The notes under the pieces were generated by a model that was given only the letters and a program-made list of their open reading frames with translations, searched no databases and was not told the origin of the DNA. A program made the position numbers and the translations under genes. Shown here piece after piece: positions 30,361-62,899 of a stretch of 64,000 nucleotides of DNA (within the stretch, counting starts at the first letter, position 1; the number at the start of each line of letters is the position of its first letter). Where the stretch lies: positions 62,001 through 126,000 of the forward strand of contig FWCC01000075.1 in assembly GCA_900169235.1 (NCBI GenBank), written 5' to 3'. The stretch is from Zarea fungicola (lineage: Eukaryota > Ascomycota > Sordariomycetes > Hypocreales > Cordycipitaceae).

Positions 30361-31846
30361 TTAATATGGGAATTCAGCCTCGGGCTGTGAAACAAGCAGG
30401 CCACTCTCCTGCTGGATCTTGTGCTGCTCATCCAGGTAGGGCAACAAAATATGATCCCAGTGCTTTTTACCCTTGTACTCGGCGACGGTATCATCCCATG
30501 ATCGGATGGCCTCCGCAAGGCGCCCGGGGACGTGTAGCTCCTTGGCGATTGTCGTAATGGGTTCAAAGTACGTCCTGACCGTGAACACCAGAGCTCTGGA
30601 CCTCGGAAGCCGCCTGAGAGTCTGCCTTTCCGAGCGAAAATGAATTTCTTCAATGGATAATCCCTCTGAGTTGGCGGCAGCCCAAGCTGATGAGATTCAA
30701 GTTAGCGAGGGACCGTGGAGTGAAACTCGCCCACCATGCTTGGAATGCGAGAAAACTTACAAGCCTCTTCGACTCCCCCCTGGTCGCCCATACGATGCGA
30801 CCAATGCAGGCCATCGTCCAGTTGAATAAAATACTGCGGCTTTATCAGTGTACAATTCAGGCGGATGGCAAGTGCAGTGAGTAGGTCAGTCACGTACATT
30901 ATTTCGAGTAACCGGACTTTCTGGTGCAAGCCGCGCAAAAAAGCGATTCATGCCCGTTTTGAGCTTTCGCTCGTAATGGGGAACTTTTGCATTTTCATGC
31001 AACTCGTCCAATGACGTCCGAAACTTTTCGCGGAGGCGCCAGAAGCCAGGCAGACAAATGGCCCCCGCATCAAATCGGTAGTGTTCGTCTGTGGCGAAGG
31101 AAAAAAAAAAATTAGTTGGGACCAGAGTAGAGAGTATGGACTGAAATTTGGCGTGCTCGATAACTTACCGTCGTTTTTAATCATCAAAACTAGATCGTCC
31201 TGAACGAGCAAGGCTGCCGTTGCCAAGGCGTCTGTCGGGGTTCCTAGGTGCAGCGGGTATTAGTTGACCGTCTCCTTGGTCTAGATAGAATTTATTATAA
31301 ATTCTCTCGGAAAGAAGGTGACTCACGTGCAGGATAGTCAAAAACCTCGCCGGTCAGCGTGTTTTTCAGAGTGCTCCCGTCAAGTTGAAACATGCTCGGA
31401 TACCGATTGGAGAGATATGCCGCGGGCTCCTCCAGCAGCTCAAAGCACGCATCGCGCGTGACGGCGTTGTCGACATACTTGACGTGGCCATGCAAGTCCT
31501 TTTTCAGCTCGGAAGCCTTTATGTCGTGATAACGCATGTAATTGCAGTCGAGTTGAATCCACTCATTCCAGTCCAGTTTGCGAATGCCCATGGTGATTTG
31601 GTTGGGACCATGGCGAAACGGGCGGTACTTGATGGGTTCTTTGGAGGCGAGGTCAAAGTCATCAAGGGCGTCGGGCTTGGGGGTAACAAATGGTCTTTTT
31701 GCGTCCAGAGCACTGTTTTGGGCCTTGTTCGATGAGAATCCATTTCGCTGATGGAAGCGAAACCATGCTAGAGAGACGACCAACACCGCCGCAAGAGCGA
31801 AGAAGAGCTTCGTCTGCGTCAGTGATTCTTGTGTCATGTCAGACAT
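30361..31846 (-). CDS. heme-dependent oxidative N-demethylase-like protein (HODM/DUF3445), 394 aa
   Basis: Members of PF11927 resemble the alpha subunit of heme-dependent oxidative N-demethylase, which oxidises N-methyl groups of small amines. Exons on the minus strand: 31846-31327, 31243-31169, 31088-30898, 30833-30761, 30686-30361 (1185 nt, all phases agree). An N-terminal segment (about residues 13-29, [16 protein letters not shown]) looks like a membrane anchor. Landmarks: [33 protein letters not shown], a Q-D-D-L-V-L-M segment, [17 protein letters not shown] and [21 protein letters not shown], where basic and aromatic residues are strongly conserved. Aldehyde (formaldehyde or imine) release would suit the neighbouring ALDH and RidA. 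Enzyme activity for fungal members is inferred, not shown here. Confidence 0.85.
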
Positions 31847-33005
31847 TTTCTAGATGGTGTACTAAGAAACCTAAAGACAGTTCATTTTTTTCTGTATCCA
31901 TGCATGACAAGTTGGATGACTAGTAATGTATTTAAACCAACTGATCAGACTTTCAATGGCGAGTCGGCTTCCTTGGATGGACCCCGCCACAGCCAGAGGC
32001 GGCTGGATGTCGCACTAAGCCTTTCATGGGCAACAGATTGCATGCCGCCCGATTATCAGGCTAAGACGAAAGTCGTTGCTCTTTCGTGCTGAGAAAGATG
32101 GTTCAATTGGAGTCCACACAGTCTCGACACACGCGACATTCGTTTAATAGAAATACCCGCACAGCTGGGTCTTTCCGGGCGCTTGTGCATAGAATGCTGG
32201 AGTTGGTCCGAAAAACTGCTTGTTTAAAACGGCTGCATGTCCCACAGAAAACTTGGGCCTTCCATGCCTAATTTGGCAACTTTCAAGACCATTTTCAATC
32301 TGTCGACACAGGTAGGAACTGCGGAGGTGGCGTGACAAATATTACTTGGCAGACAAGCAGAGCCATCGTCTTTTCAGCACCTTGTCTATTAGGCATCGTG
32401 ATCTTGAACATGTTTGGTTCGGATACTTTATGGCCTCGCACATATGCCTCGTGAATTATTGGCTCTATCCAATCTGTGACAAGCGACGAGGTCAACTACC
32501 CGGTTCCCGGACACCGCTACATTTTTACCCTGGGGCACCAAAAGGCTAAATAAATGGTATAATAAAAATAGTTTGAAATTATACTGAAATTATAATTATA
32601 TTATTTATAGTAATATCATATTGCGTGCAGCATGCTGGAGCTGTCAAGCTACGTAGAGACGCCGCCCTCGAGCCATCCGCCTATTCGCAACCGCACGAGT
32701 TGTGCTAAATCTGTTGACCCATCGCTTCTCGCCATCTGCTCGTCCATACTGCGAATTACCTTGTCAATATACTGTCCTGCCCCGGACGGATGCAAGATGT
32801 GTGCAATTGCGCGGCGTACCGCTAAGAGGCGTGGCGACGGCTCAATGGTTCGAATGCCCTACTAAATAATTTCACTCAACTCATCGTTACGCACAGTACT
32901 GAGGCCCTGAAGAGCATGAAAACGCGTCTTTCTTCTCAAGCCTCAATTATCAACTCTTACTTATTCTCATTCTCACTTATTCACCACCTCGTCCTGATCC
33001 TGATC
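31847..33005. other. intergenic with AT-rich tract
   Basis: Promoter of the N-demethylase-like gene, then about 70 bp of nearly pure A/T (32550-32622). No gene is supported. Confidence 0.5.
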
Positions 33006-38803: not shown

Positions 38804-40043
38804 GACATTGGCTGTCTGCGAAAATGCTTCTTAAGAGTCGGAGGGTCAATTGTTTAAACTACTGTCCAGACGCAGCACGGCGCGAGCCTGGTACCCCGGA
38901 TCTTATTATGGCAGCCGCAGCGCCTCCGTTCCAACAAACGGTTTAAGGCATGCTTCAATTTCCATGGCTGTCGGTTTGCAATCTGCAAGCCTGGCAGCTT
39001 CATGGTATAGTTTCCATCTGATTTCATCTTTCTTTGCCTCGCACTCTTCAGATTTAGGTAGACAATTTGACAGAATTTACATCACTATCGCGACGAGCTA
39101 CGCAGCCAAATAGCAGGATACAATCAAGAATTAACTACAGTCAAGGTTGTGCACTTTTCCCTTCAAGCAAACTTCCCACCCCGTAGTTTAAAATGGGAGT
39201 TGCAACTCTCGTTGAAATTTAATATTTCATTATGCCATCCTTTGGGCAAATGGCGGACCTCTCCGTGGCCCCGTCTTGCTTACGCAGCTTCGTTGAACGC
39301 AGTCGAAGCCCAGACCAAAAAGCTAAAAATATTAATTACGGCTGCGGCCTACAACTAATGACCATAATCAACAACCAAAATCCAGACGGGAATATAATCT
39401 ACCGGCAAGTAGTCAAGTCTTGCTTTACTATAGAACAAGATCAATTGCATTATCTTACACCGACATTCTACTTTATACCTCCGAAAATGTCAAGTTACAA
39501 CCCTGGAGTCATATTCAAAGCCTAAGTAGTATAAAAATTAATTGGCTTATTCTTGAGATGAATGTGGACACATTGGTTTAAGAAACGGGTCTCTTTGACC
39601 GCAATTTGAAGTGCTCGCAAAAATTATGCGCATCTACGTGAATGCCTCATTCCACTTCACCTCCGTGTATCCATACTACTCACAAAGTCGGTTACTTTGC
39701 CTTGTTTTCAAATGCAGAGAAAGCCTGCGCCTTTTTCCATTTCTCAAACAGGTTTTTTTTTAACTCATCGTCTTAATTGTCTGTATAGTACTCCAGTCGC
39801 AGCTCCTCAGCCGACTTCGATTTATATTTATATTTGGGGCAAAAGCATATATGTTGAAAAGGTTTCCATGTCGATGTAGATAAGTCCTTTTCAACACGAG
39901 AAGGTGGTGGAGGACCTCTGCGAAATTTAAAAAGAGAAAAGTAGATACAGATGCCAAATGAAAATGTACCAGCGACACTCTCCCTGTTGGTCCATGGCGT
40001 AATATATTGGGAGGAAGAGGGACGTTGCGGGAGAAGCTTATGC
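38804..40043. other. 1.2-kb intergenic region
   Basis: 3' flanks of the secreted protein (+) and dynamin (-) genes. No supportable gene is present. Confidence 0.5.
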
Positions 40044-43000
40044 TTACGTCTGCTTGTCGCTCCCAGTTGTTGGGCCTGTACCGAAGCTGAAACCACCATA
40101 AGCTGGCGGTGCGTTGCTATCACTGCTACTGGAACCAGAGCCAGGCAAACTTGTACCAACCTTCGGAGCTGGCGCTGCTTTGATATCACTGCTGCCGGCA
40201 TCAGAGCCAAACAAACCTGTACCAGCCTTCGGAGCCGGCGCTGGTCGACCACCGAATAAACTTGCGCTAACACCCAGAGCTGGCGCTGCCTTATTATCAC
40301 TACTACCGGTACCAGAGCCAAACAAGCCCGTACCAGCCTTCGGAGCTGGCGCTGCTTTGCTATCACTGCTACTGGCACCAGAGCCAAATAAACCTGTACC
40401 AGCCTTTGGAGCTGGCGCTGCTTTGATATCACTACTACCGGCACCAGAGCCAAACAAACCCGTACCAGCCTTCGGAGCTGGCGCTGCTTTGCTATCACTG
40501 CTACCAGCGCCAGCGCCAGCGCCAAACAAACTCTTGCTGAGCGCAAAAGGCAACGGTGTCTTGTTGCTGGTGCTATTGCTGCTAGAGAATAAAGAGCTAG
40601 TCCCTGGCGGTAGAGTCAAGGGTGCCTTGTTGTAAGTCCTACTGCCGCCGGAAAACAAAGAGCCAGTCCCTGAAGCTACCGGCGCCGCGTTGTTCGTACT
40701 GTTGCTAGTGCCAAAGGAATTTGTAGTCGCTGAAGCTGGGGTTGCCTTGTTCTCGCCACTGCCAGGGCTGCTAGGCAACGATTTTCCGATGTCGTCAATG
40801 ATGTCTTGCAGCGACGTTTTCGTCGGAGCAGGCAAAGCCCCCGGGAGAGCCAGCTGTCCCGGAGCCGTAGTCTTAGGCAGATCTGGTAGCTTGGCCGGTG
40901 AGTCCGTCGGCAGCCAGAGGGAGCCCGCAATCGTGCGAATATTGGCATCGTATATGGGCTGCTGCTTCACAGGTTCCGCGCGCCGTCTCCAAAGTCGACA
41001 TTCGTTGAGTCCCTCTTGCAGCGTCTCGATTTCCTTACCGAGCTGGGACCTGAGGGCGTGTGCAGACGGAGGCTCAGAGGCCAGCTCTTTCAGTCTCTCG
41101 TCGTCCATCTCTCCGACCGAGAGCGGAGTAAAGATGGTCGGCAAATCTTGAATGAGACATCCCTCGATGGCCAGGTTCATAATATTCTCTGTAAATGTAC
41201 GACGAGACATCTGCTCCGGGAAAACGAATTAGCATTTTGTCATCGCCAGATTTAATAGAACCGAGCCGGTGCGCCGGGTTGAAATTACCTCATAGTACGC
41301 CTGCATCATATCAATGATTTTTTCCGTCGCGTATGTGCCCCCGTCCACGGATTGATTCACCTTCGCCGCCGCTGACAGCATCCTTTCCTCCTGCGGTGGC
41401 CCAAACGGGTGCGGTTTCGCCAACTGTGCCAGCGACAGACTCTGTAGCCTGTCCGCCATCCGCTCCACTGCCCACCGATCAACTATTTCCCGAAACTCAG
41501 CATCCAGTGGCACCGCGTAGCCTTCCATGTACGGCGCCAGAAGCCGATTCAGCTGCTGTTCGAGAAGCATCTCACGCTCCGTGAAGAAGCCATCGACATA
41601 TTTGCGTTGGATAGCATCGGCTGTCAGGTGTCCGTTCTTGGAGCCGATGATGTGGGCAAGGAGGTTCCCGACAAAGTCCTTTGCGGCATCCGTGACACGC
41701 TGGATGTGGAACTGGGCCATGGTACGCCAAGGAAAGGCCTGTATCTTGAAGAGGTAAACGGCGAGCTCGCTGTTGCACGCGCCGGGAAGCTCACGGCCTT
41801 CAGTTGCCGTGGCTAGGCTCTCGAGCCGTGCGTTCAAGACCTTCCGGGATACTCTTTTGGGCAGCGGGAAGTCATAGGAGTTGGTGGCGAGAAAACCGGC
41901 AATGGAATCGGGGACGACGGTGATTTTCTCGCTCTCGCTGTGTTTTTCATCGACTTCCTCGATGTGTAGTGTGTAGCCGCGCGTCTTGACGATGTAGTCA
42001 AATGCGCGGTGGAAGCCCCTGAGCTCAGCGCGGAGCCTGTTCCGTGGGGATGTTAGCTCCCCAAAGAAGCCGTCGGCGTAATGACCGCTGTTGGCATCGC
42101 GTGTCAGTCGCTGAAATTCGACGGCGATGCGGAGGAGAAACGAGCGCATGTCCTTTGGGTCTGATCGCTTAGGCCCGAGCTCGTCATGTTCTTTTTGTCG
42201 CCGCTCCAGATTCTGCTCAATATCGCGGATGACACCTGGCAGGCATGTCCGCGTGTGATTGTACAAGATGGAACTGAGTTTTTCGCGAAGACTAGCAATT
42301 CCGAGATCTCCCTGGTCAACTGTATTCCACATTGATGACGCAAAAAAGGCGCTTTCAATGTCATCTCGTGAATCCAAGCTTTTTTCGCCCTCTGCACGGT
42401 TGCGCAAGACGTGCCAGCCAAGCTTGAAGTTATATTCTGGTTCGAGATTCTTGGCGAGGTGGATATGAGCTGTCATTTGGTGTCCCGTGGCCAAATCAGG
42501 TTTTGTGATGACACCCAGACTGCGCTCAAACTCCTGATCGTGAGCCTCGACCTTGGCCAGTACATCGTGTCTCACGATATCAATGTGGGCCTCCACAACG
42601 ACTAGCATGATGCTCTTCTTTTGCGTCATGTAGCGATCCGTGAGGTAATTGACAGTCTCTATGTCCGCCTTGGTCTGTCCTTGGCCACCCACTCGGAAGA
42701 GGCCAGGCAAATCCACAAGAGTGAGGGGCGTCAATTCTGGTCCTTCCATGGTTACGCATAAAACGTCCTTTGAGAAGTTTTTACTGGCAATCCCAATACC
42801 CATGCATTCCTTTGCCTTGTCAATCAAGCCGGGGAGGTCCTGCTTATTTACCCCCGACTCGTCAAATGCTGTGTCAACTTTCGTATCGTCGTCGCACCGA
42901 ATGCGGACATTGACGCGGGAGTGGTCTGTTTTGTACAGCGAGATCTCCGTGGCGAAGCGCGTACATAGCTCTGCGGCAACGGGGAAACGAACGCCGGAGA

Positions 43001-45119: not shown

Positions 45120-45260
45120 TTAGCAGTTGTTGCAGATCAAGTACTCCTCATGAGGAGCAGTAGCGGCAGCCTCCTTGGCGGCATAGGCATCCTCGACCGG
45201 GACAGCAATGGCAGTAGCAAACATGGCAAAGGCCACGGCGAGAATCTGAGAAGTGTTCAT
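45120..45260 (-). CDS. 46-aa secreted peptide; candidate RiPP precursor
   Basis: A gene of 47 codons including the stop, ATG at 45260, TAA at 45122-45120. Residues 1-19 are a clear signal peptide (MNTSQILAVAFAMFATAIA). A short hydrophilic, Ala/Glu-rich leader (VPVEDAYAAKEAAATAPHEE) is followed by the C-terminal heptapeptide YLICNNC at residues 40-46. A minus-strand TATAAAG at 45357-45363 lies 97 nt upstream. The Tyr-x-Ile spacing at the start of the terminal segment resembles cores of dikaritin-type fungal RiPPs, and two UstYa-type genes lie 1-3 kb away. There is only one core-like segment and no dibasic Kex2 site, unlike most described precursors, so it may instead be a small secreted peptide or signalling molecule. 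Expression and processing are unproven. Confidence 0.6.
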   Translation of the reverse strand: MNTSQILAVAFAMFATAIAVPVEDAYAAKEAAATAPHEEYLICNNC

Positions 45261-45275
45261 GTTGACGAAATTTAA

Positions 45276-45327
45276 GAGAATGGAATGATTATTGATACGT
45301 TATGAGAATGGAATGATGGTTGATACG
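45276..45327 (+). repeat. 24-bp tandem duplication in the leader of the peptide gene
   Basis: Two copies of a 24-bp unit beginning GAGAATGGAATGAT (45276-45299 and 45304-45327), 28 bp apart and identical at 22 of 24 positions. They lie between the TATA element and the ATG of the 46-aa peptide gene. Confidence 0.7.
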
Positions 45328-45356
45328 ATGCTGCTTGACGAGGAGGGATGCTGATG

Positions 45357-45363
45357 CTTTATA
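45357..45363 (-). promoter_or_regulatory. TATA box of the peptide gene
   Basis: TATAAAG on the minus strand, about 97 nt upstream of the ATG at 45260. Confidence 0.55.
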
Positions 45364-46251
45364 CTTGAATTCTAAATGTACTCCGACTCACAACTTGCTT
45401 ATCGCATATGGAGCTTATCACTTTGAAATGGAATATTTACGCAAATAGAATCAGCGAGAACTGATAAAAGTGGTACCGATCATCCGTAGCCATGCAGTGA
45501 CGGTCTCTGTTCCTATTGTCATACGACTGGCATACCGTCTTGGTACAGCGGTACCCTTGCTTGACAACCAAATACGGATGTGGCATTATTCGTAGACGAT
45601 TGGTTCCATCTGATCTACAAGCTGACGTGAGACCCGTTCTGACGCGAAATTCCTCGAGCTACCGAGACGATTCACATTAGACTGTCCTTTCTTTTTGCGT
45701 TACGGTGCCGTAACGGACCCTTGTGCCTGTCTTTCTTTATAGGAAAAACAGGAAGTATGGTTGGAGAAGACACAGTTTCTTACCAAACGTTAAGGGCAGT
45801 ACATGTACTGCTACTAACCTTTGAGGAACTTATGAAAGCATATTTGTGAAGAAAATGACTATGCTACCATAGAGACAACCTACAAGCAACTGCTTCCGGC
45901 GATATTAATTCCCATGCTCCGCCCAACAACAGTTTATGGTAAGAATTTAGTGAGACGGGGGGATATGTAACATGCACCTTAATCACTTGTGGGGTGCTCA
46001 TTTTTGATCCTAGTGATAAGGCGCAAGGAAAATCATACACAATCCCACACATTGCGGGTCGCCTCTTTTAGTTTAGGCTTCCATTAGCTGTTATTAGCCA
46101 TCTAGGCACCCGAATATGCAATAATGCAATGTCAGCTTCGTAGCGAGAAGAGCGGTGGGAGACTGTGAACGTGTCGTATTCCACTCACTCACAGTTCGAG
46201 CCTTCAGCTCCATTTGAGTTTAGCCATTGAGATTTACGGCAAACAAGTCCA
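45364..46251. other. divergent intergenic region
   Basis: Upstream region shared by the 46-aa peptide gene (-) and the first UstYa-type gene (+). No further open frame is convincing. Confidence 0.5.
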
Positions 46252-47042
46252 ATGGAGTCACCCGCGTCTTACCACGGCTGTCAAAATTGCAGCTCAAAAT
46301 GCGAGGAAAAGGCACCTCTAGTTAAGAGAGGAATGACAATTTTGCTCATACTCTCACTGGTGGCTAATGGCCTATTTGTAGCTGGATTCGGGTTCTGGCG
46401 TCAAAGACCATTGACAAGCAGCCATGCCCCTGAATTCAATACGGAGATGTCGTTTGGCGAGTCTGACCTGCGCTACCAGTCCCTCAACTACGCATACGAT
46501 GATCTTTGGAGTGGTAAATTCAGTATTGCAAATGGCTCTGGCATCCTCGATCTGCCGGACAGCGAACACAAAGAGGGGCTTCAAAAATTGGGCGGCATTG
46601 CCATGTGAGCTGAAGCTATCTATAGACACCACTGTATAAAATTGCTGAATAATTTTCAGGTTTCACCAACTTCACTGCCTTTGGATACTTCGCAGTGATA
46701 TCCGCAGCGCAGTAAATGGAGAAAGTATTGCCACAAACTGGGTTGATGCCGGCCATGGAAATCATTGTATAGACTATTTGAGAAAGGTAACTTTAATGCT
46801 TCTCCAAAATTTCAACCCTCTGGAAACCACTTTACAGATGTTAACTACGATTCCAGTCAATTTTATGCTATGCAGACCCAACAATTGAAAGACCAAGTGC
46901 CGTGGCAGGTGCCAAGGCAGCCGCAGATGGCGGCATTGCACTAGATATTCTTGGCCATGAGACGAGAAAGTGTCGGAGCTCATCTTTACTCTATGCACTG
47001 CGAGAAAACAAGATGATAAAACAAGGTCCACAGGTAGATTGA
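46252..47042 (+). CDS. UstYa-like (DUF3328) oxidase, copy 1, 221 aa
   Basis: UstYa-type proteins are membrane-anchored, probably copper-dependent oxidases that build ether or C-C macrocycles on fungal RiPP cores and act in some other secondary pathways. Exons 46252-46604, 46660-46786, 46857-47042 (666 nt). The N-terminus is cytoplasmic with one transmembrane helix (about 28-50, MTILLILSLVANGLFVAGFGFW). The lumenal part has YDDLWSG, then HQLHCL at 120-125 and HGNHCIDYLR from 150: the two HxxHC motifs that define the family, 30 residues apart. SILCYADPTIERP and HETRKCRS follow as in relatives. The third-exon acceptor must be CCAG at 46856, not ACAG at 46836, to keep CYADPT in frame. It lies 1 kb from and divergent to the 46-aa peptide gene. 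Confidence 0.88.
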
Positions 47043-47198
47043 GTTTATTTCAGTATTTTCGAAGTTGTACAATTAGTAGCAATGCGATAAATTTGGTGGA
47101 AAGATTACCAGTGAGCAATCAGAAGAAACATAATTAAGCCGAGTGTTGCGAATGTAGTAACTGAATTTAAATCTAAATCACTGTAGATCCAAGTAAAA

Positions 47199-48207
47199 CT
47201 ATATGCTTCTTCTCTTCGAGACAGAGTCTTTCATATCATGACCTGCCGCTGCCATAGATGACAACCCCGTCGTGTTCCTTTGTGATGCCCAATCCTTGAT
47301 CGCTTCAAAATCCCGGCACTTGAATTCCTGTGTACTCGGCAAAGTGTATGCGTTGTGCTCGTGGTCCCAGAGAAATCTCTGTGGAGTCGTGTCAGCGTGA
47401 CACATGAGTGTCAGTCGTAGATGCTCGATGCAGTGGTCTACAGTCATGTTAACGTAGTGCTGGGAGAGAAATTCAAAAAGTACGAACCCATGTGAAATTC
47501 CCAGAACCCAACTTCTTCACCGTTCTGCCATGATAAATGTCGCGGTTCCCATACCTGCTTCCGAAGCATAAGCTACCTACTTGTCAGTACCTGGCCATTC
47601 TTTATGTACAACACTTGGAACTTACCAGACAGTGAAGCTGATGGAAGACATTCAGCTCCACAACGTATTTATTTGGAATCCTCATGTCTTTTGTTGTGTG
47701 TAATGGGAGGCGGGCAGCCTCCGCTGAGCTGATACCGACGACGCCGACTGTTACACACTGTCAGCTGGGCTCGTTGCTCTCCACAGTAGTATTTTATTAA
47801 ATTTACTCACCACTAAGTAGATCTTTCCATGCTTTGTGAAGTGTTTCGGAGGGTCGACCGTGAAAGGCAGTGTCTGTCTTGGGGCCTAGACTCTGCCGTT
47901 GTTCGTTGGCTGGAGGGAAATCCTCAAAAATATCTATAAAAATATCTTTTTAGCGTCAAAACAGTTTTCAAATATCATTTAGACTGGGCGAACCTGGCCA
48001 TGTTTTTTGTATAGGGGCCGGCCTGGCTTTAAGGTACAACATCAAGTACAATAAGAAGAGTGTCAAATGGATAACCCAGGGTGCCCAGGCAATACATCGT
48101 CTCAGGGAGGCGTTCCTGTGCTCGCGGTGCCTGATACTGTTTTCACCTCTGGGTGAATCCGAGACTGTGTCAACTTTGTCATAGAAGGGCTCATTGGCTG
48201 CAGTCAT
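47199..48207 (-). CDS. UstYa-like (DUF3328) oxidase, copy 2, 260 aa
   Basis: Second UstYa-type protein, convergent with copy 1. Exons on the minus strand: 48207-47994, 47933-47811, 47747-47626, 47572-47488, 47437-47199 (783 nt). One N-terminal transmembrane segment (APWVIHLTLFLLYLMLYL) precedes FHGRPSETLHKAWKDLLS, which corresponds to the family's pre-motif region. The defining motifs are HQLHCL at 148-153 and HMDHCIEHLR from 180; the second is created by splicing exons 4 and 5. LTLMCHADTTP and FKCRDFEAIKDWA are typical of the family C-terminus. It is clearly diverged from copy 1, so it is not a recent duplicate; paired non-identical UstYa genes are usual in dikaritin-type clusters. Confidence 0.88.
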
Positions 48208-49928
48208 GGTGGAAAGCTTGGCGAGTACTCTGCTGCTACTCTGCTGCTAGCTTTCAACCACTTCGCCAGTGTTAACTTCAAAGTTCTGTCATTCCACATC
48301 TAGAATAACACGTGGCTGCAAGCCGGGATGCTCATAAATACTCACTTATTGCATCAACTTTGTTATTTAGATTATGAAGATAAACCCCTGTCGAATATTG
48401 ACTTTTTACGGTGGTTAAAGCGGACCAGATCAGCTACTTCTTACTACTGAAGAGAAGGTTGTAGTTCTACAAGTGGAACAATATCTACGGCTGTAAGCTG
48501 AGTCAGATATTGATTGTAAGAGTTGCGATTATAAGTTTTGTCTTTGTGCAATCATCTCAACCAGAGTTGAGACTCCTGCTAAGTAAGTACTTGAAAGCTA
48601 TCTGGTAGAACTAATGTGATGCGGTCTTGTTATTGGTACTGTTTCATTTGTAGCTCTTTGCCTCGTCTGAAATGCAGCAAATGCAGCAACCTTCAACTCA
48701 GTAATCTATTGTCTGAGGCGTGCAGCGATGAGTTTTGATAGCGTCTTTCTTCTTGCAAGTAAACCGTCATAATGAGCGGTTGTCTCCATAAGTGGATGCT
48801 TTGGACAGCTGTCCACAGCTCGACTTACTTTTCTATACAAAACAAATAATGATACGTCGCATCCAACGGAGAGCGCGGCAGACCATGAGCAGTAAATCCG
48901 AGCAGTAAATCCTGCCTCTCGCATTTTGAAAACGACCACACACGCTATACCTAACCTGTTCAACGGCCCACATACCCCTACTAGTACATAATAGTAGCCA
49001 ATCAAGAGTTAGTATTTATTACAACTGTTGGCCACTCTATGTAAGTGCCATTGAGATAGCCTCACTTCCTTGCCAGCTCCAAGTAGTTCAGTTAGCCAGC
49101 GCGGGCGGCGATGAAGATGATCATTTAGGTCCCAGACGACACACATAACCACTATAGCCGGCAATTTGTCATACATAATGCCGGCTTCTGTCTCGCCGGT
49201 GACCCATCAGGGCAACAGCATCAAATTCAGTGGCAACCTCAGTGGCAGCACACCGTTAAACTAGAATTACAATCAATTATTTCTTGGTGTAGTTGTCCCT
49301 GCAAATTTAGGTGGAGAAAATATAAGGGTGTTCTTAATATGGTATAGCGTGTGTGGTCGTTTTAAAATGCGAGAGGCAGGATTTACTGCTCGTAGACCAT
49401 CCCTGATTCATATTATTTATTGCCTCATTCTGCCATGCCGAAGTTAGCCACCCACGTCAAACTGGACTCGCATGATTGGTGCCGCGGATAATTTAGCCAC
49501 TAATAAAGACGATGATGCCGGTTTAGTTCAGGGCCGGAGATACGCCGCCGAAACCTTGCCAGTACCTACCTAATTAGTTGCTTGACTTACTTCCCAAATT
49601 TGATGGTAGAGGGGCTCGTTTGGCGTAGATTACTAGAGCTCCCTCCACTGAGTAAATCCCGGCGGATCTGTGGATATCGGACCAAAAGTTTCCACAGATC
49701 ACCGCGCAATGACTCAAGACCACCCCAAGCACCCTTCCTATTCAGGGTCGAGATCCGTCAAGTGGGATAGAAGCATTTATTAGTGGCTTTGTCTCCTCGA
49801 TGCCCAATAGATTGTCACGAATCCCGAACCTAACCTCTGACTGCTCTCATTAATATTTTGCCCTTTCAGAATACCGAGCCGAGTATCGAGTACACTATTT
49901 GCCGTCTCTCAACCTTCAATACCTAAAC
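48208..49928. other. 1.7-kb region containing an inverted-repeat element
   Basis: Promoter sides of UstYa copy 2 (-) and the 242-aa protein gene (+), divided by the MITE-like element at 48887-49393. No gene is supported. Confidence 0.5.
48887..49393. mobile_element. MITE-like element with 52-bp terminal inverted repeats
   Basis: Left arm 48899-48951 and right arm 49341-49392 are inverted copies differing by a single-base indel (share CAGTAAATCCTGCCTCTCGC and ACGACCACACACGCTATACC). AGACCAT occurs directly at 48880-48886 and 49394-49400, a plausible 7-bp target duplication. The outermost 13 bp of the left arm is duplicated in tandem. The interior of about 390 bp has no coding capacity. Confidence 0.75.
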
Positions 49929-50657
49929 ATGTTGAAGCTATTCCGATCCAAACAGTACAGTCCACTTCCTAATCATCACGACAAGATTGGAGAAGACTCA
50001 CTCGAGCAGAGCGAACCACTCGTCACAGACTCTCAAAACTCGATCAAAAGGACATCACGGACATCACAGTGGCGTGTATGGCGTGTGGCGTTTGGGATTG
50101 CCTTCTGCCTTTTCTGCATTGGCCTCGCCGCTGCCTTCATCTCGGGTAGTTTGTCGCAACTGATTGCCTCCAACCGCAAATGGACGCACTGCGGAAGCAC
50201 AGTAGAGGAAGCCCACGCTCGTGGCTGCCAATATGATGTCATGATTGGCTCGTGGTTATTGCCAGAATGCTTTGATGCTGAACTCATGGAACGATACCTG
50301 GCTGACCGAGATTGGGAATTCTTCCGGGATTCTAACCTGTCGCAAGTTCTTCCCATGGATGAGCTGCGACGCGGAGAGCACAGTTATCCGGTGTGGGCCA
50401 CCGTGCAACAGCATCAATACCACTGTGCCTACATCTGGGAGAAGCAATTCCGCTCAGCCGTAGCTGGCGAACTAATGGATGACCTGTCTGCGAGCGTTCA
50501 CCATACGCACCATTGTGCAACTGGGCTTGCCAATGGCATGCCCGGAGCCAAGGAGAACCTCGCGCTGGCCGTCAAGTACTTTTCATGTGTTCGAGCGGGG
50601 GAAGGAAACCCGAGGAGGGAGAACAATCCCAATAATACACTTGTAAAGATACCTTAG
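49929..50657 (+). CDS. membrane protein with two HxxHC motifs, divergent UstYa-like, 242 aa
   Basis: Single exon with ATG at 49929 (MLKLFRSKQYSPLP). The layout mirrors UstYa proteins: a cytoplasmic N-terminus, one transmembrane helix (about 53-75, VAFGIAFCLFCIGLAAAFISG), then a lumenal domain with HQYHC at 162-166 and HTHHC at 192-196. The spacing of 30 residues is exactly that of UstYa copy 1. The rest is different: CGSTVEEAHARGCQYDVMIGSWLLPECFDAEL and WEFFRDSN are hallmarks of a separate fungal family I have seen uncharacterised, often near secondary-metabolism genes. Likely an oxidase of related fold (inference). It is third in the cluster after two UstYa genes. Confidence 0.75.
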   Translation: MLKLFRSKQYSPLPNHHDKIGEDSLEQSEPLVTDSQNSIKRTSRTSQWRVWRVAFGIAFCLFCIGLAAAFISGSLSQLIASNRKWTHCGSTVEEAHARGCQYDVMIGSWLLPECFDAELMERYLADRDWEFFRDSNLSQVLPMDELRRGEHSYPVWATVQQHQYHCAYIWEKQFRSAVAGELMDDLSASVHHTHHCATGLANGMPGAKENLALAVKYFSCVRAGEGNPRRENNPNNTLVKIP

Positions 50658-55531: not shown

Positions 55532-57133
55532 ATGGAATCTGGGACAGTCAGTCACGATGGCGCCGTGGTCAACCAAAATGAAGCAGTTCCGTCTGCTGGA
55601 GAAATCACGGAGAAGCCCGCGGAAAATTGGGTGGTTGAATCGCTGTCAACCTCCCACGAGATAGCATTGGTTCTGCTAATGTGCATGACCCAGTTCTGTA
55701 CTCGTAAGTTTTCCTAAAATACGCTTGCCGGGCAAGTAGATGGACACTCACTAACAATGTTCCAAGAAGCCGCGTTTACCGGAATTCTCGCCCTGCTTCA
55801 CGTGGTTGGGGATTCGTTCCACGAAACAGATACTCTGCAACTTTCCTGGCTTGTCGCAGGCTATTCTCTGACAGTGGGCACCTTTATTCTCTTTTCAGGG
55901 AGACTAGGTGATGTTTTTGGGTACAAGCGCATGGTGGTGGTAGGGTTCTCTTGGTTTTCGTTTTGGTCAGTCCTGGTCGGCATCAGCGTTTATACGGAGC
56001 TCAGGCTTGCGATTTTCTTCAGGGTTTTGCAGGGAATTGGCCCTGCATTGTGCCTCCCAAACGCTTTGGCGATTCTAGGATCCGTGTACCCTCCAGGACA
56101 TCGCAAAGCAATGGTTTTTGCCTTCTTCGGTGCTGTTGCGCCGCTGGGGGCTGTTTGTGGCGGTATATTCTCCTCGCTTCTCGCTCTGGCATGGTGGCCT
56201 TGGGCAATGTGGGCGCTTGGAATTTGGCTAGCCATATGTGCCCTGGCTGCAGCATTCCTCGTACCCGACATTCCGAGGGCAGCAACGTCTCGGACTTCCT
56301 GGAGAGCATGGTCGGACGCATTAGATCTTCCTGGCACTGTTCTCGGTACTGCATCGTTGGTTTTATTCAATTTTGCTTGGATTCAAGCACCAATCGATGG
56401 CTGGGGAACGGCCGTGGTAATCGTTCCTCTCATCCTAGGCCTTACCCTGTTTTTCGCATTCGCTTTCGTGGAGTTCAGGCTGAGCCCAAACCCAATTCTT
56501 CCATTCGCCGCCGTCAACGCAGATGTTGCGTTTGTGCTTGTGGTCGTAGCTTGTGGCTGGGCAACATTTGGGATATGGACCCTGTATTTATTTCAGCTTA
56601 TGGAGGATGTCCGTGGGCTATCGCCTTTGCTTAGTACCGTATGGCTCTCTCCGGCTGCAGTCGCAGGCGGTTGCGCAGCGGTGCTGACGGGAAATTTGTT
56701 GGGCCGCTGGCAGATTCAGCCGCCAATTGTCATGACACTTGCTTTGCTAGCATTCAGTATCGGCGTCATCTTGACAGCAACTGCGCCGCCTGGCCAGATA
56801 TATTGGGGCCAGATGTTTTTCTCCATGATAATAATGCCGTTTGGTATGGATATGAGCTTCCCTGCAGCAACACTAATTCTCTCCAATGCGGTTCCTAGGG
56901 AGCACCAGGGCGTCGGCGCAAGTTTGGTGAATACGGTTGTCAACTACGGCATTGCGCTAGGTGTAGGTTTCGCGGGTACGGTCGAGGTGCACGTTCGGGA
57001 ATCCGATAGGACAATAGGAGATCGGCTTCAGGGTTATAGGGGTGCATTCTACATGGGAATTGGCTTGAGCGGCTTAGGTTTAGGAATTTGTCTCGTGTTC
57101 ATTTGGCGCATGAACTTCCGCACCCGGAGATGA
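55532..57133 (+). CDS. MFS transporter, DHA2 (drug:H+ antiporter) type, 512 aa
   Basis: Plasma-membrane exporter candidate with 13-14 hydrophobic segments. Exons 55532-55703 and 55767-57133; the 63-nt intron (GTAAGT donor, CACTAACAA branch, CCAAG acceptor) restores MTQFCTQAAFTGILALL. Signature features: FSGRLGDVFGYKRMVVVGF in the helix 2-3 loop, a helix-4 FFRVLQGIGPALCLPNALAILGS, and antiporter motif C in helix 5, GAVAPLGAVCGGIFSSLLA. This pattern matches fungal relatives of aminotriazole-resistance and toxin-efflux pumps. It lies divergently from the MDR gene and within reach of the UstYa genes, so a role in exporting the cluster product is plausible but unproven. Confidence 0.88.
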
Positions 57134-60466: not shown

Positions 60467-61216
60467 TCAGACCTCAATCTCAAATTCTTTGGACTCGTAC
60501 AGATTCCAGGCACATGAGGCAATATTCTGCGGACTCGTTTCCTTTGCTGCTGAATCGACAACTCCCATCACCCGGACCATGCCAACATGGACACCTTTTG
60601 GCGTAAAGACTTCAGCAAGCGTTTGACACATATTCCTTTGCGCGGCTTTCACCAAAGACAATGTGAACAATGGTGTATAAGGGTCTCGGGAGAGCCATGT
60701 ACCAGTAACGAGGAAAGACGGTTTTGCCGACGCATCTGACTCGGCAAGGTCAACAAGCTTCGGCATTGCCCATTGCGCAGTATGAAGAAGGGCAATGTTG
60801 GTAATCTAGCACGAAATTAGAATGCTATATACCGTATGCGTTACATCATATGTGTTGGCATGGTATCTTACCTTGAAGTCATAAATCATTTGATCTTCCG
60901 TCTCCTCTTCAATAGATGTTGGCCGAATGACTGCCGGATTGAAGTAAACCGTCTCGATTTTCACACCCTCGGCCGAGACGGTGCGCAAAACTTTCTTAAA
61001 CTGCTCGCCGTCTGCAACATCGGTAACGAATGTAGAGACATTTACCCCGGGAGCTGCAGCTTCCACCGCCTTGCGATCAATGTCGAGTTGTTGCTGCCTC
61101 CTGGCAATAAGCGCCACATGATTGTATCTTTTTGCAGCGAAGAGTGTCGCAACAGATTGGCCAATGCCGGGGCCAGAGCCAATTAAGACCAATGCATATG
61201 GGGATCGGGCTGCCAT
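60467..61216 (-). CDS. short-chain dehydrogenase/reductase (atypical), 227 aa
   Basis: NAD(P)H-dependent Rossmann-fold enzyme. Exons on the minus strand: 61216-60872 and 60805-60467 (684 nt). The N-terminal loop GSGPGIGQSVATLFA and NHVALIARR define the coenzyme-binding strand and helix. The expected Y-x3-K catalytic pair is not present: the relevant segment reads FTLSLVKAAQRN, with a Lys but Leu/Ser where Tyr is expected, as in a divergent fungal SDR group. Residues FLVTGTWLSRDPYTPL precede it. Stop is at 60467. The role and substrate are unknown; it is the fourth tailoring-type gene after the UstYa cluster. Confidence 0.8.
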
Positions 61217-62899
61217 GATCGCTTTATGCTAGTAGGGTTAAGCACTTAGAATCAGTTTCAGTTGCTTTATAATTGCTAAGAGGCCGGCGCGAGTGCTGAT
61301 TATTTATCAGTGGCGGCGGTATATACCTGACTAATTGGCTAGATGGCATGGCTGTAGATGGCTTGCGCTTCTTGAGCTGCTAGAAATTCTAATTGGCGTA
61401 TATGTGCCGGCCACAAATATTGAAGCATTGATTATAAAGAAAGTTCAGACTTTACTCATAAAGTTTATTTGTGAGATTATCAAGACGCGGGGAAATGTGC
61501 AGGTTGTTAAGTCGGCGGCATATATCCGACCAATTGGCAGCAGGCATGGCTGTAGATGGCTTGCGCTTCTTGATCAGCTTCAATTGTCTAGTCGGCAAAA
61601 ACGTGCCGACCAAACAGATTCACAGCTTTGATTACCAAGAAAGTTCAGTCCTTATTATAAAGCTCTTCTTTACTTTTTAAAATAGGCAAATGTCTCGAAA
61701 CTCCTTAGAAAGCTATCTTACTAATATAAATCGGCAAGTGCGAGGATGACAAGGTCTTCCATTGGGATTCACCAAACTCAACACCACAGATAAGACTATG
61801 ATTCCGGAGTTTTCGCCGGATGCCAATCTTCGGGATTCTGTTAGAGAGACTGGTTTAATTTTTTTTCTATCAGCATTGCACGAGATCTCTCAACATAGAG
61901 GGGGGCAAGCGACCAAAAGTAACCAAGTCGATCATTAGCGGGCCTCACATGAAGCGCAGACTAAATGTTCGAAATCCGCCAATGAGACAGCTCAAACGGA
62001 CAGCTGACAGGGGCACCAGTGCTTCAATAAGACGAGGCCGCCGTACAATTTACTGTCACAGTGTGTTAAGTCGAACTTACAGATACTAAGAGTAACGCTC
62101 CACCACGCAGATGATTTAAAAGACAAACACTACAACCAGTGCAGAATATGTTCAGTATATTCGACCAGGAAATGAATCTAATTAAATACAGTGGCATTTA
62201 TGTATTTTCTACTCAAATATTAGTCATTTTCTTTCATATTGACTTCCCTCTTTGTACGTTCTGGAGGTATACGCTATAGCCAGGGGTATTTGGTTCGTTG
62301 TCACTCACATCAAGTGCTCCCATCACCAACGCCAGTGACTATAAGTCTCACCTACTGGCAAATTAACACGTAATGGGGTAATTCTAGCGCGCTGCTAAAG
62401 TTCGTGTTTGCCTGTACATCTGACGGATATATCCAAGCAGCCCCAGTCATTTATTAGAGCATATGCCTCGCGGCCTGCAAAAGCGGATACGCCATCCCTT
62501 GCTCAACACATGCCTTGAGATGGTGGGGACGGGCAAGTGACGTTAGTTATCGGACTAGTGCAGTCACACGGACTAGGGCAATCACTGCCGTGGAGCTGAC
62601 CATGACTGAACTTCGTCCCTGTGTGAAAAGCAGTGGGGTGATCTGCCGTCTCACTTTCGACTATCGACAGCCTGAGAAATTGCCAAGACAGCGCGTCAAA
62701 GCGGGATTTTCAACCCAGAACGAGACTAGACTATCTACATATCCATTTCCTCTTAGGCCTAGCATCCCAGCAGAGAATGCTAGAGCTGAATGGATACCTT
62801 CAGACTGTGGCCATGGGGATCCTTTCCATCACAGTGGAAGTTATCATCTTGAGAAATCAGCTGTGAACGCAGGGCCCTACCTGATCTGGAAGATAAATA
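61217..62899. other. 1.7-kb gene-poor region with a direct repeat
   Basis: Upstream of the SDR gene. Contains a pair of direct repeats with 200-bp period (61311-61468 and 61511-61665) and otherwise no coding signal I can support. Confidence 0.5.
61311..61665 (+). repeat. two tandem copies of a ~155-bp unit
   Basis: Copies at about 61311-61468 and 61511-61665 share GGCATGGCTGTAGATGGCTT followed by GCGCTTCTTGA, and GAAAGTTCAG near their ends. The second copy also carries an internal inverted repeat GTCGGCA...TGCCGAC (61591-61610). Confidence 0.7.

Follow-up and report, generated by a model that had tools for sequence, protein, structure and literature searches.

A candidate one-core, ustiloxin/phomopsin-like peptide gene cluster with two UstYa genes and a third paired-HxxHC membrane protein in Zarea fungicola

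A 64,000-nucleotide stretch of the Zarea fungicola genome (contig FWCC01000075.1, here C290, positions 62001–126000; hereafter the window) harbours a compact group of four genes that may produce a ribosomally synthesised and post-translationally modified peptide (RiPP). Within 5.5 kb, the group comprises a gene for a 46-residue peptide with a signal peptide, two spliced genes of the UstYa family (PF11807, DUF3328), here UstYa1 and UstYa2, and a single-exon gene for a third membrane protein with paired HxxHC motifs (Table 1). A preliminary description, made from the sequence alone, had proposed these four genes, and all of them were found where it had placed them. On balance, we favour reading the group as a ustiloxin/phomopsin-like RiPP cluster with one core, whose three membrane oxidases would act on the sequence Y-L-I-C. 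It is a credible candidate for such a pathway, not yet a proven one.

The candidate precursor is a 46-codon open reading frame (ORF) that translates to MNTSQILAVAFAMFATAIAVPVEDAYAAKEAAATAPHEEYLICNNC. Its N-terminus is hydrophobic with an A-x-A site, and the signal peptide was called by a simple rule that combines hydropathy with such a site. The C-terminus reads HEEYLICNNC. With a codon log-odds score of 0.27 per codon, the ORF ranked best among the 94 ORFs of 30–80 codons that were scored across ten intergenic parts of the window (runner-up 0.24). Together with an upstream TATAAA box, this top coding score makes the ORF look like a real gene. The score is a weak test, since the cluster genes UstYa1, UstYa2 and the third gene themselves yielded values of −0.05, −0.04 and 0.03, which are below those of several of the 93 other ORFs.

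The C-terminus of the peptide resembles known precursors. In the accessible parts of earlier reports, EDYXI is given as common to ustiloxin and phomopsin precursors (PMC6339444), YXIX as the deduced core, with both compounds cyclised at Y and I (PMC7329392), and a tyrosine–isoleucine ether as the bond that closes the 13-membered ring of phomopsins (PMC6514808). The peptide reads E-E-Y-L-I-C, which means that EEYLI equals EDYXI with one D-to-E substitution, that YLIC fits the YXIX core and that Y, I and their spacing match. Motifs were counted in six-frame translations of 24 loci and the window, which together span 275,982 bases; segments of 25 residues or more were kept, for a total of 380,543 residues. 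The pattern [DE][DE]YxI occurred once, inside the last ten residues of the peptide. The versions [DE]YxI and YxI occurred 34 and 583 times, and were found within the last ten residues of 3 and 89 of the 6,981 segments, respectively (peptide included). The motif may be taken as partly independent support because the preliminary description did not use it, although D was relaxed to E post hoc.

Both UstYa genes encode members of PF11807 (cut-off 25 bits). UstYa1 has three exons and 221 residues (FHQLHC...HGNHC, 55.1 bits), UstYa2 five exons and 260 residues (FHQLHC...HMDHC, 136.7 bits), with splice sites as read by us from the sequence. The HMDHC motif of UstYa2 requires a 50-nt GT..AG intron, and the unspliced frame reaches a stop. 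The peptide gene and UstYa1 are divergent with 991 bases between them, UstYa1 and UstYa2 are convergent, and UstYa2 and the third gene are again divergent. UstYa1 and UstYa2 are 1.0 and 1.9 kb away from the peptide gene. The proposal of a compact unit, in which a secreted peptide lies beside non-identical UstYa genes, gains from the EEYLI motif and from a like arrangement on two other contigs of the same genome, C230 and C170.

The genome (43.1 Mb, 456 contigs) gave 55 exon-level PF11807 matches, which were merged into 40 gene-like clusters at 35 loci. The loci examined in detail numbered 24 (20 plus four shorter ones), 21 of them with a UstYa match. By inspection, precursors with Kex2-type repeats were present at 10 of the 24 loci, including those on C230 and C170, where such a precursor, a UstYa gene and a protein of the third family occur together. 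It follows from this grouping that the window has a precursor-plus-oxidases layout, with the 46-residue peptide in the position of the precursor. The repeat finder also flagged low-complexity and wrong-frame ORFs (including ones at L030, L034 and window positions 39776–40615), which were dropped by eye; the precursors at L031 and L036 were recognised in a short-ORF scan and the one at L033 in its correct frame. Kex2-repeat precursors adjoin UstYa matches widely, as observed at L023 (C230), L027 (C439), L021 (C170), L032 (C162), L029 (C167) and L042 (C360), and those of C230 and C439 carry related repeats (NGDILYNN...GWGKR and NPDILYF...GWGKR).

The third protein has eight further matches in the genome (E ≤ 0.1). 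Five of these paralogues are located 0.3–2.9 kb from a UstYa match, namely on C230, C170 and C401 and, in two copies, on either side of one UstYa gene on C182; counted by contig, linkage is 4/7. The binomial value for 5/8 (6e-10) is too optimistic, given that the C182 pair is counted against a single UstYa gene and that biosynthetic genes tend to cluster in any case. Outside this genome, the database protein P0008 shares 73% identity with the third protein across 137 residues, and P0013 is 48% identical to UstYa1 exon 1 over 98 residues and ends at the same residue as the unspliced first exon in the window. For both, the database gives JGI as the source and 3,012 bases as the length of the longest contig. 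From this common value we conclude that P0008 and P0013, as orthologues of the third protein and UstYa1, are probably located on one metagenome contig; P0001 and P0002, which are about 5 kb apart in the window, likewise share a listed value (12,129).

A Pfam scan assigned the third protein to no family at E ≤ 10. Six of its eight paralogues and two relatives were scanned as well and all stayed below the PF11807 cut-off (best 10.8 bits). InterPro has a phomopsin-associated family for proteins of this type; neither of the entry codes was found in the literature, and a similar phrase occurs in one paper. A search of 5.8 billion proteins yielded nine relatives besides the protein itself (32–73% identical). 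In viral contigs and prokaryote genomes, no relative was confirmed. The alignment of the family comprises 15 sequences, seven of the ten proteins from the database search (the third protein included) and the eight paralogues from the same genome; P0006 (long N-terminus), P0008 (a fragment) and P0011 were omitted. The third protein is 48–58% identical to the six aligned relatives from other sources. All 15 sequences share H162, H165, H192, H195 and C196; C166 is absent only from the copy on C442 (L024:4702-5406), whose first motif is HDLHY. In a profile comparison against seven sequences of the UstYa type, including two single exons, the paired HxxHC region aligned with a probability of 87.7 and a pairwise E-value of 3.4e-6. 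Judged by these comparisons, the third protein is a distant relative of the UstYa/DUF3328 family and not a member as defined by Pfam. Its earlier grouping with the UstYa-type oxidases is borne out for the paired HxxHC motifs and is not supported for family membership.

The AlphaFold2 model of the third protein has a mean predicted local distance difference test (pLDDT) value of 70.6 and shows a long hydrophobic helix (residues 46–78) near the N-terminus. H162, H165 and C166 are placed on helix 159–179 and H192, H195 and C196 on the neighbouring helix 190–202, with pLDDT values of 84–91 for the block of residues 151–200. The model thus predicts an N-terminal membrane helix followed by paired HxxHC motifs on adjacent helices. 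The same arrangement is reported in the available part of a study of CctR, a dioxygen-dependent binuclear copper enzyme of the DUF3328 type (PMC12435403). Because of this CctR-like arrangement in the model, the third protein probably works like a UstYa oxidase, even though it falls outside PF11807. No fold match to the third protein was detected among solved structures at E ≤ 0.001 (best 2.4), and no sequence match to UstYa1 at E ≤ 1. For the UstYa homologue P0012, the predicted model was poor (mean pLDDT 53.6).

Building on the observed gene structures, motif, family scores and linkage, the following route is proposed. If expressed, the 46-residue peptide would enter the secretory pathway (endoplasmic reticulum and Golgi), where UstYa1, UstYa2 and the third protein would each be anchored by one N-terminal helix, with binuclear copper-type sites facing the lumen. 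Entry into this pathway and the copper/dioxygen chemistry are carried over from known families. All three oxidases could share this one substrate and oxidise the C-terminal core Y40-L41-I42-C43(-N-N-C46). The likeliest step would be the formation of an ether ring between the oxygen of Tyr40 and the beta-carbon of Ile42, as in ustiloxins and phomopsins, and further chemistry may take place at Cys43 and Cys46. The leader would have to be removed by a protease other than Kex2. Trimming and export would then yield a product that may be bioactive.

Several observations weigh against this route. The pattern [DE][DE]YxI was widened from EDYXI after the peptide had been seen, and exact EDYxI is absent from the translations. 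In the 46-residue peptide there are neither repeats nor a Kex2 or other dibasic site after the signal peptide. The protein search with the peptide returned one candidate, the peptide itself, though a word-based search of this type may overlook peptides that are short and divergent. In the genome, the single match to the peptide is its own locus. Three of the eight third-family paralogues (C442, C286 and C272) are without a UstYa match on their own contig, the C442 copy being situated about 2 kb from a contig end, and P0011, the most distant relative (32%), is without the second HxxHC motif in its predicted frame. No tyrosinase (PF00264) matched on contig C290; the tyrosinase UstQ is described as essential for ustiloxin in the accessible part of PMC6514808. 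The nine tyrosinase matches of the genome lie on six other contigs and are within 6 kb of a UstYa match in two cases. S41 peptidases (PF03572) gave no match in the genome at E ≤ 0.001, with introns not modelled. Ustiloxin yield is stated to have risen with the number of repeats (PMC10512285, in part), and since dikaritins are defined by repeat precursors there, a single-unit precursor is unusual.

Whether the cluster can be called dikaritin-like, as the preliminary description did, depends on the definition. In one review, as far as accessible, the defining feature of dikaritins is a repeat precursor processed by Kex2 (PMC10512285). Having no Kex2 site and no repeat, the peptide falls outside this strict definition. 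A lichen survey reports a looser definition via a DUF3328 gene and, in its available part, names a single core as no more than a possibility (PMC12048977). The name would apply in this looser sense, with two genes of the UstYa/DUF3328 family beside the peptide gene.

Compared to the ustiloxin B and phomopsin clusters, the group shares UstYa-family genes beside a secreted precursor and, at its putative core, an acidic residue before Y-x-I and a fit to YXIX. It differs in that no tyrosinase (UstQ/PhomQ) or S41 peptidase was found nearby and that a cysteine follows the isoleucine. Whereas the ustiloxin precursor has 16 Kex2-separated repeats according to the accessible part of PMC10512285, the peptide has one unit at its extreme C-terminus. 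The asperipin-2a cluster is likewise very small, with four genes, a UstYa-type oxidase and no tyrosinase listed in the available part of PMC6514808; however, its core is the hexapeptide FYYTGY and it has one UstYa-type protein, compared to two UstYa proteins plus the third family here. Kex2-processed repeat proteins (KEPs) also have a signal peptide and a small secreted product, and DUF3328 genes are reported near 22% of KEP genes (PMC7329392, in part). Since the window peptide, in contrast to KEPs, lacks repeats and dibasic sites, KEP-based genome mining would not list it. Tyrosinase matches about 0.4 kb (C157) and about 6 kb (C43) from UstYa matches mark two loci that are closer to the classical ustiloxin layout.

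Other identities of the peptide were considered and rejected. A fungal alpha-pheromone precursor was dismissed on the basis of a sub-threshold match to the alpha-mating-factor leader model MF_alpha_N (14.5 bits, cut-off 22) and the missing Kex2 site, and a CaaX pheromone, suggested by the C-N-N-C end, because of the signal peptide and the polar middle residues. Splicing via a GTACTT donor gave four alternative models, all of which lack repeats and a YxI core. An overlooked Kex2-repeat precursor was rejected likewise, as a scan of 44.5–52 kb gave no ORF that combines repeats with dibasic sites. At window positions 45272–45327, within the presumed 5' leader of the peptide gene, a 28-nt unit occurs twice in tandem (copies 89% alike).

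The peptide might instead be an ordinary small secreted protein (a signal, an effector or pheromone-like) that is a chance neighbour of UstYa genes with their substrate elsewhere. It is an orphan with no homologue found, it shows the weak MF_alpha_N match (14.5 bits against 22), and small secreted ORFs are not rare, considering that our relaxed one-core rule gave two start sites in 56 kb of control sequence. We nevertheless regard a chance neighbour as rather unlikely, given EEYLI at the C-terminus, the divergent promoter shared with UstYa1 and the matching arrangement on C230 and C170. Furthermore, no other ORF in 44.5–52 kb satisfied the relaxed rule and no repeat precursor was found there; a looser scan gave two weak ORFs (30 and 36 residues).

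The intact state of all four reading frames, with consistent splice sites, makes it improbable that the cluster is a relict in which a former Kex2-repeat precursor, beside a transposon-like insertion, was cut down to a single unit devoid of cleavage sites. Kex2-type precursors at 10 of the 24 loci and a putative miniature inverted-repeat transposable element (MITE) between UstYa2 and the third gene would agree with such decay, but the peptide retains coding bias and a TATA box, and the third protein is still 48–58% identical to six relatives. There is similarly little likelihood that a small molecule assembled by other enzymes is the substrate of the oxidases, which would then act as tailoring enzymes like CctR in cyclochlorotine. 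DUF3328 proteins are known from polyketide clusters and as enzymes that hydroxylate or halogenate non-ribosomal peptides (PMC12435403; PMC12048977; both in part). However, no non-ribosomal peptide synthetase or polyketide synthase was present among 30 window ORFs scanned. The nearest candidate, a 140-residue frame at 60806–61228, scores with the models for ketoreductase (KR) and for short-chain dehydrogenases and resembles a free-standing reductase. No open frame exceeds 650 residues in the window, which ends 13 kb past the third gene.

Beyond the window, short secreted peptides were observed beside third-family genes on C401 and C442, where no repeat precursor was found. The C401 peptide is spliced, has 61 residues and ends in ...IKNEYGRGSGPN; its only tyrosine is the eighth residue from the end, and YxI is absent. 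The C442 peptide has 44 residues and ends in ...TVDGYPIIENWK, again with its only tyrosine eighth from the end, and YxI is present. The first version of the one-core rule missed the window and C442 peptides and was then relaxed. Applied to 21 locus stretches, the relaxed form gave nine start sites: one each for the peptides of the window, C401 and C442, one each at L035 and L039, two at L025 (both in one doubtful ORF) and two at L031 (one being the Kex2-repeat precursor). It yielded no peptide on C182 and C272 and one doubtful ORF on C286. Since the rule was adjusted post hoc and the control sequence gave two start sites, the peptides of C401 and C442 serve as leads and carry no statistical weight. 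It is possible, and we propose it tentatively, that they form a class of UstYa-linked fungal RiPPs together with the window peptide (EEYLICNNC in the window, NEYGRGSGPN on C401, DGYPIIENWK on C442). Such a class would have a single C-terminal core, no Kex2 processing and the Pfam-less third HxxHC membrane oxidase as a marker, and repeat-based mining would be blind to it.

In the titles and abstract openings of mainly open-access literature, neither a one-core, Kex2-free, UstYa-linked precursor nor the third family was described. Surveys of such fungal peptides rely on repeats separated by Kex2 sites, a rule that would pass over a one-core precursor of some 46 residues; gene callers would probably miss it as well. 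If the proposed pathway is real, fungal cyclic-peptide pathways may be more numerous than currently counted, and the question arises how a leader is removed without Kex2. The third family (about 240 residues, often near UstYa genes) provides a search handle that is independent of the tiny precursor, and a Y-x-I-C core would test whether UstYa-type copper oxidases accept cysteine-bearing substrates.

Table 1 Features of the candidate cluster in the window and of two similar loci (L numbers denote locus stretches)
Feature	Position	Strand	Remark
Candidate precursor peptide gene, 46 aa (signal peptide, ~20-aa leader, C-terminal HEEYLICNNC)	45120..45260	-	Coding log-odds first of 94 ORFs
YLICNNC codons, putative core region (residues 40-46)	45123..45143	-	EEYLI resembles ustiloxin/phomopsin EDYXI
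TATAAA box, 103 nt upstream of peptide ATG	45358..45363	-	
UstYa1 exon 1, N-terminal hydrophobic region	46252..46604	+	48% identical to P0013 over 98 aa
UstYa1 exon 2, FHQLHC and HGNHC	46660..46786	+	PF11807 55.1 bits (spliced protein)
UstYa1 exon 3	46857..47042	+	
UstYa2 exon 1, N-terminal hydrophobic region	47994..48207	-	
UstYa2 exon 2	47811..47933	-	
UstYa2 exon 3, FHQLHC	47626..47747	-	PF11807 136.7 bits (spliced protein)
UstYa2 exon 4	47488..47572	-	
UstYa2 exon 5, HMDHC across exon 4/5 junction	47199..47437	-	
Third protein gene, single exon, 242 aa, hydrophobic helix, HQYHC...HHTHHC	49929..50657	+	Pfam-less family, often near UstYa genes in same genome
C401 short secreted peptide	L020:6308-6543		Beside third-family gene; possible one-core precursor
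C442 short secreted peptide	L024:6222-6356		Beside third-family gene; possible one-core precursor

The MITE-like element is located at 48899–49392 (494 bp), has terminal inverted repeats of about 53 bp and shows partial matches on nine other contigs. A major facilitator superfamily (MFS) gene at 55718–57133 could export a product, and nothing ties it to the cluster. At window positions 31295–31849, an open frame matches the first part of the haem-dependent oxidative N-demethylase-like family PF11927.

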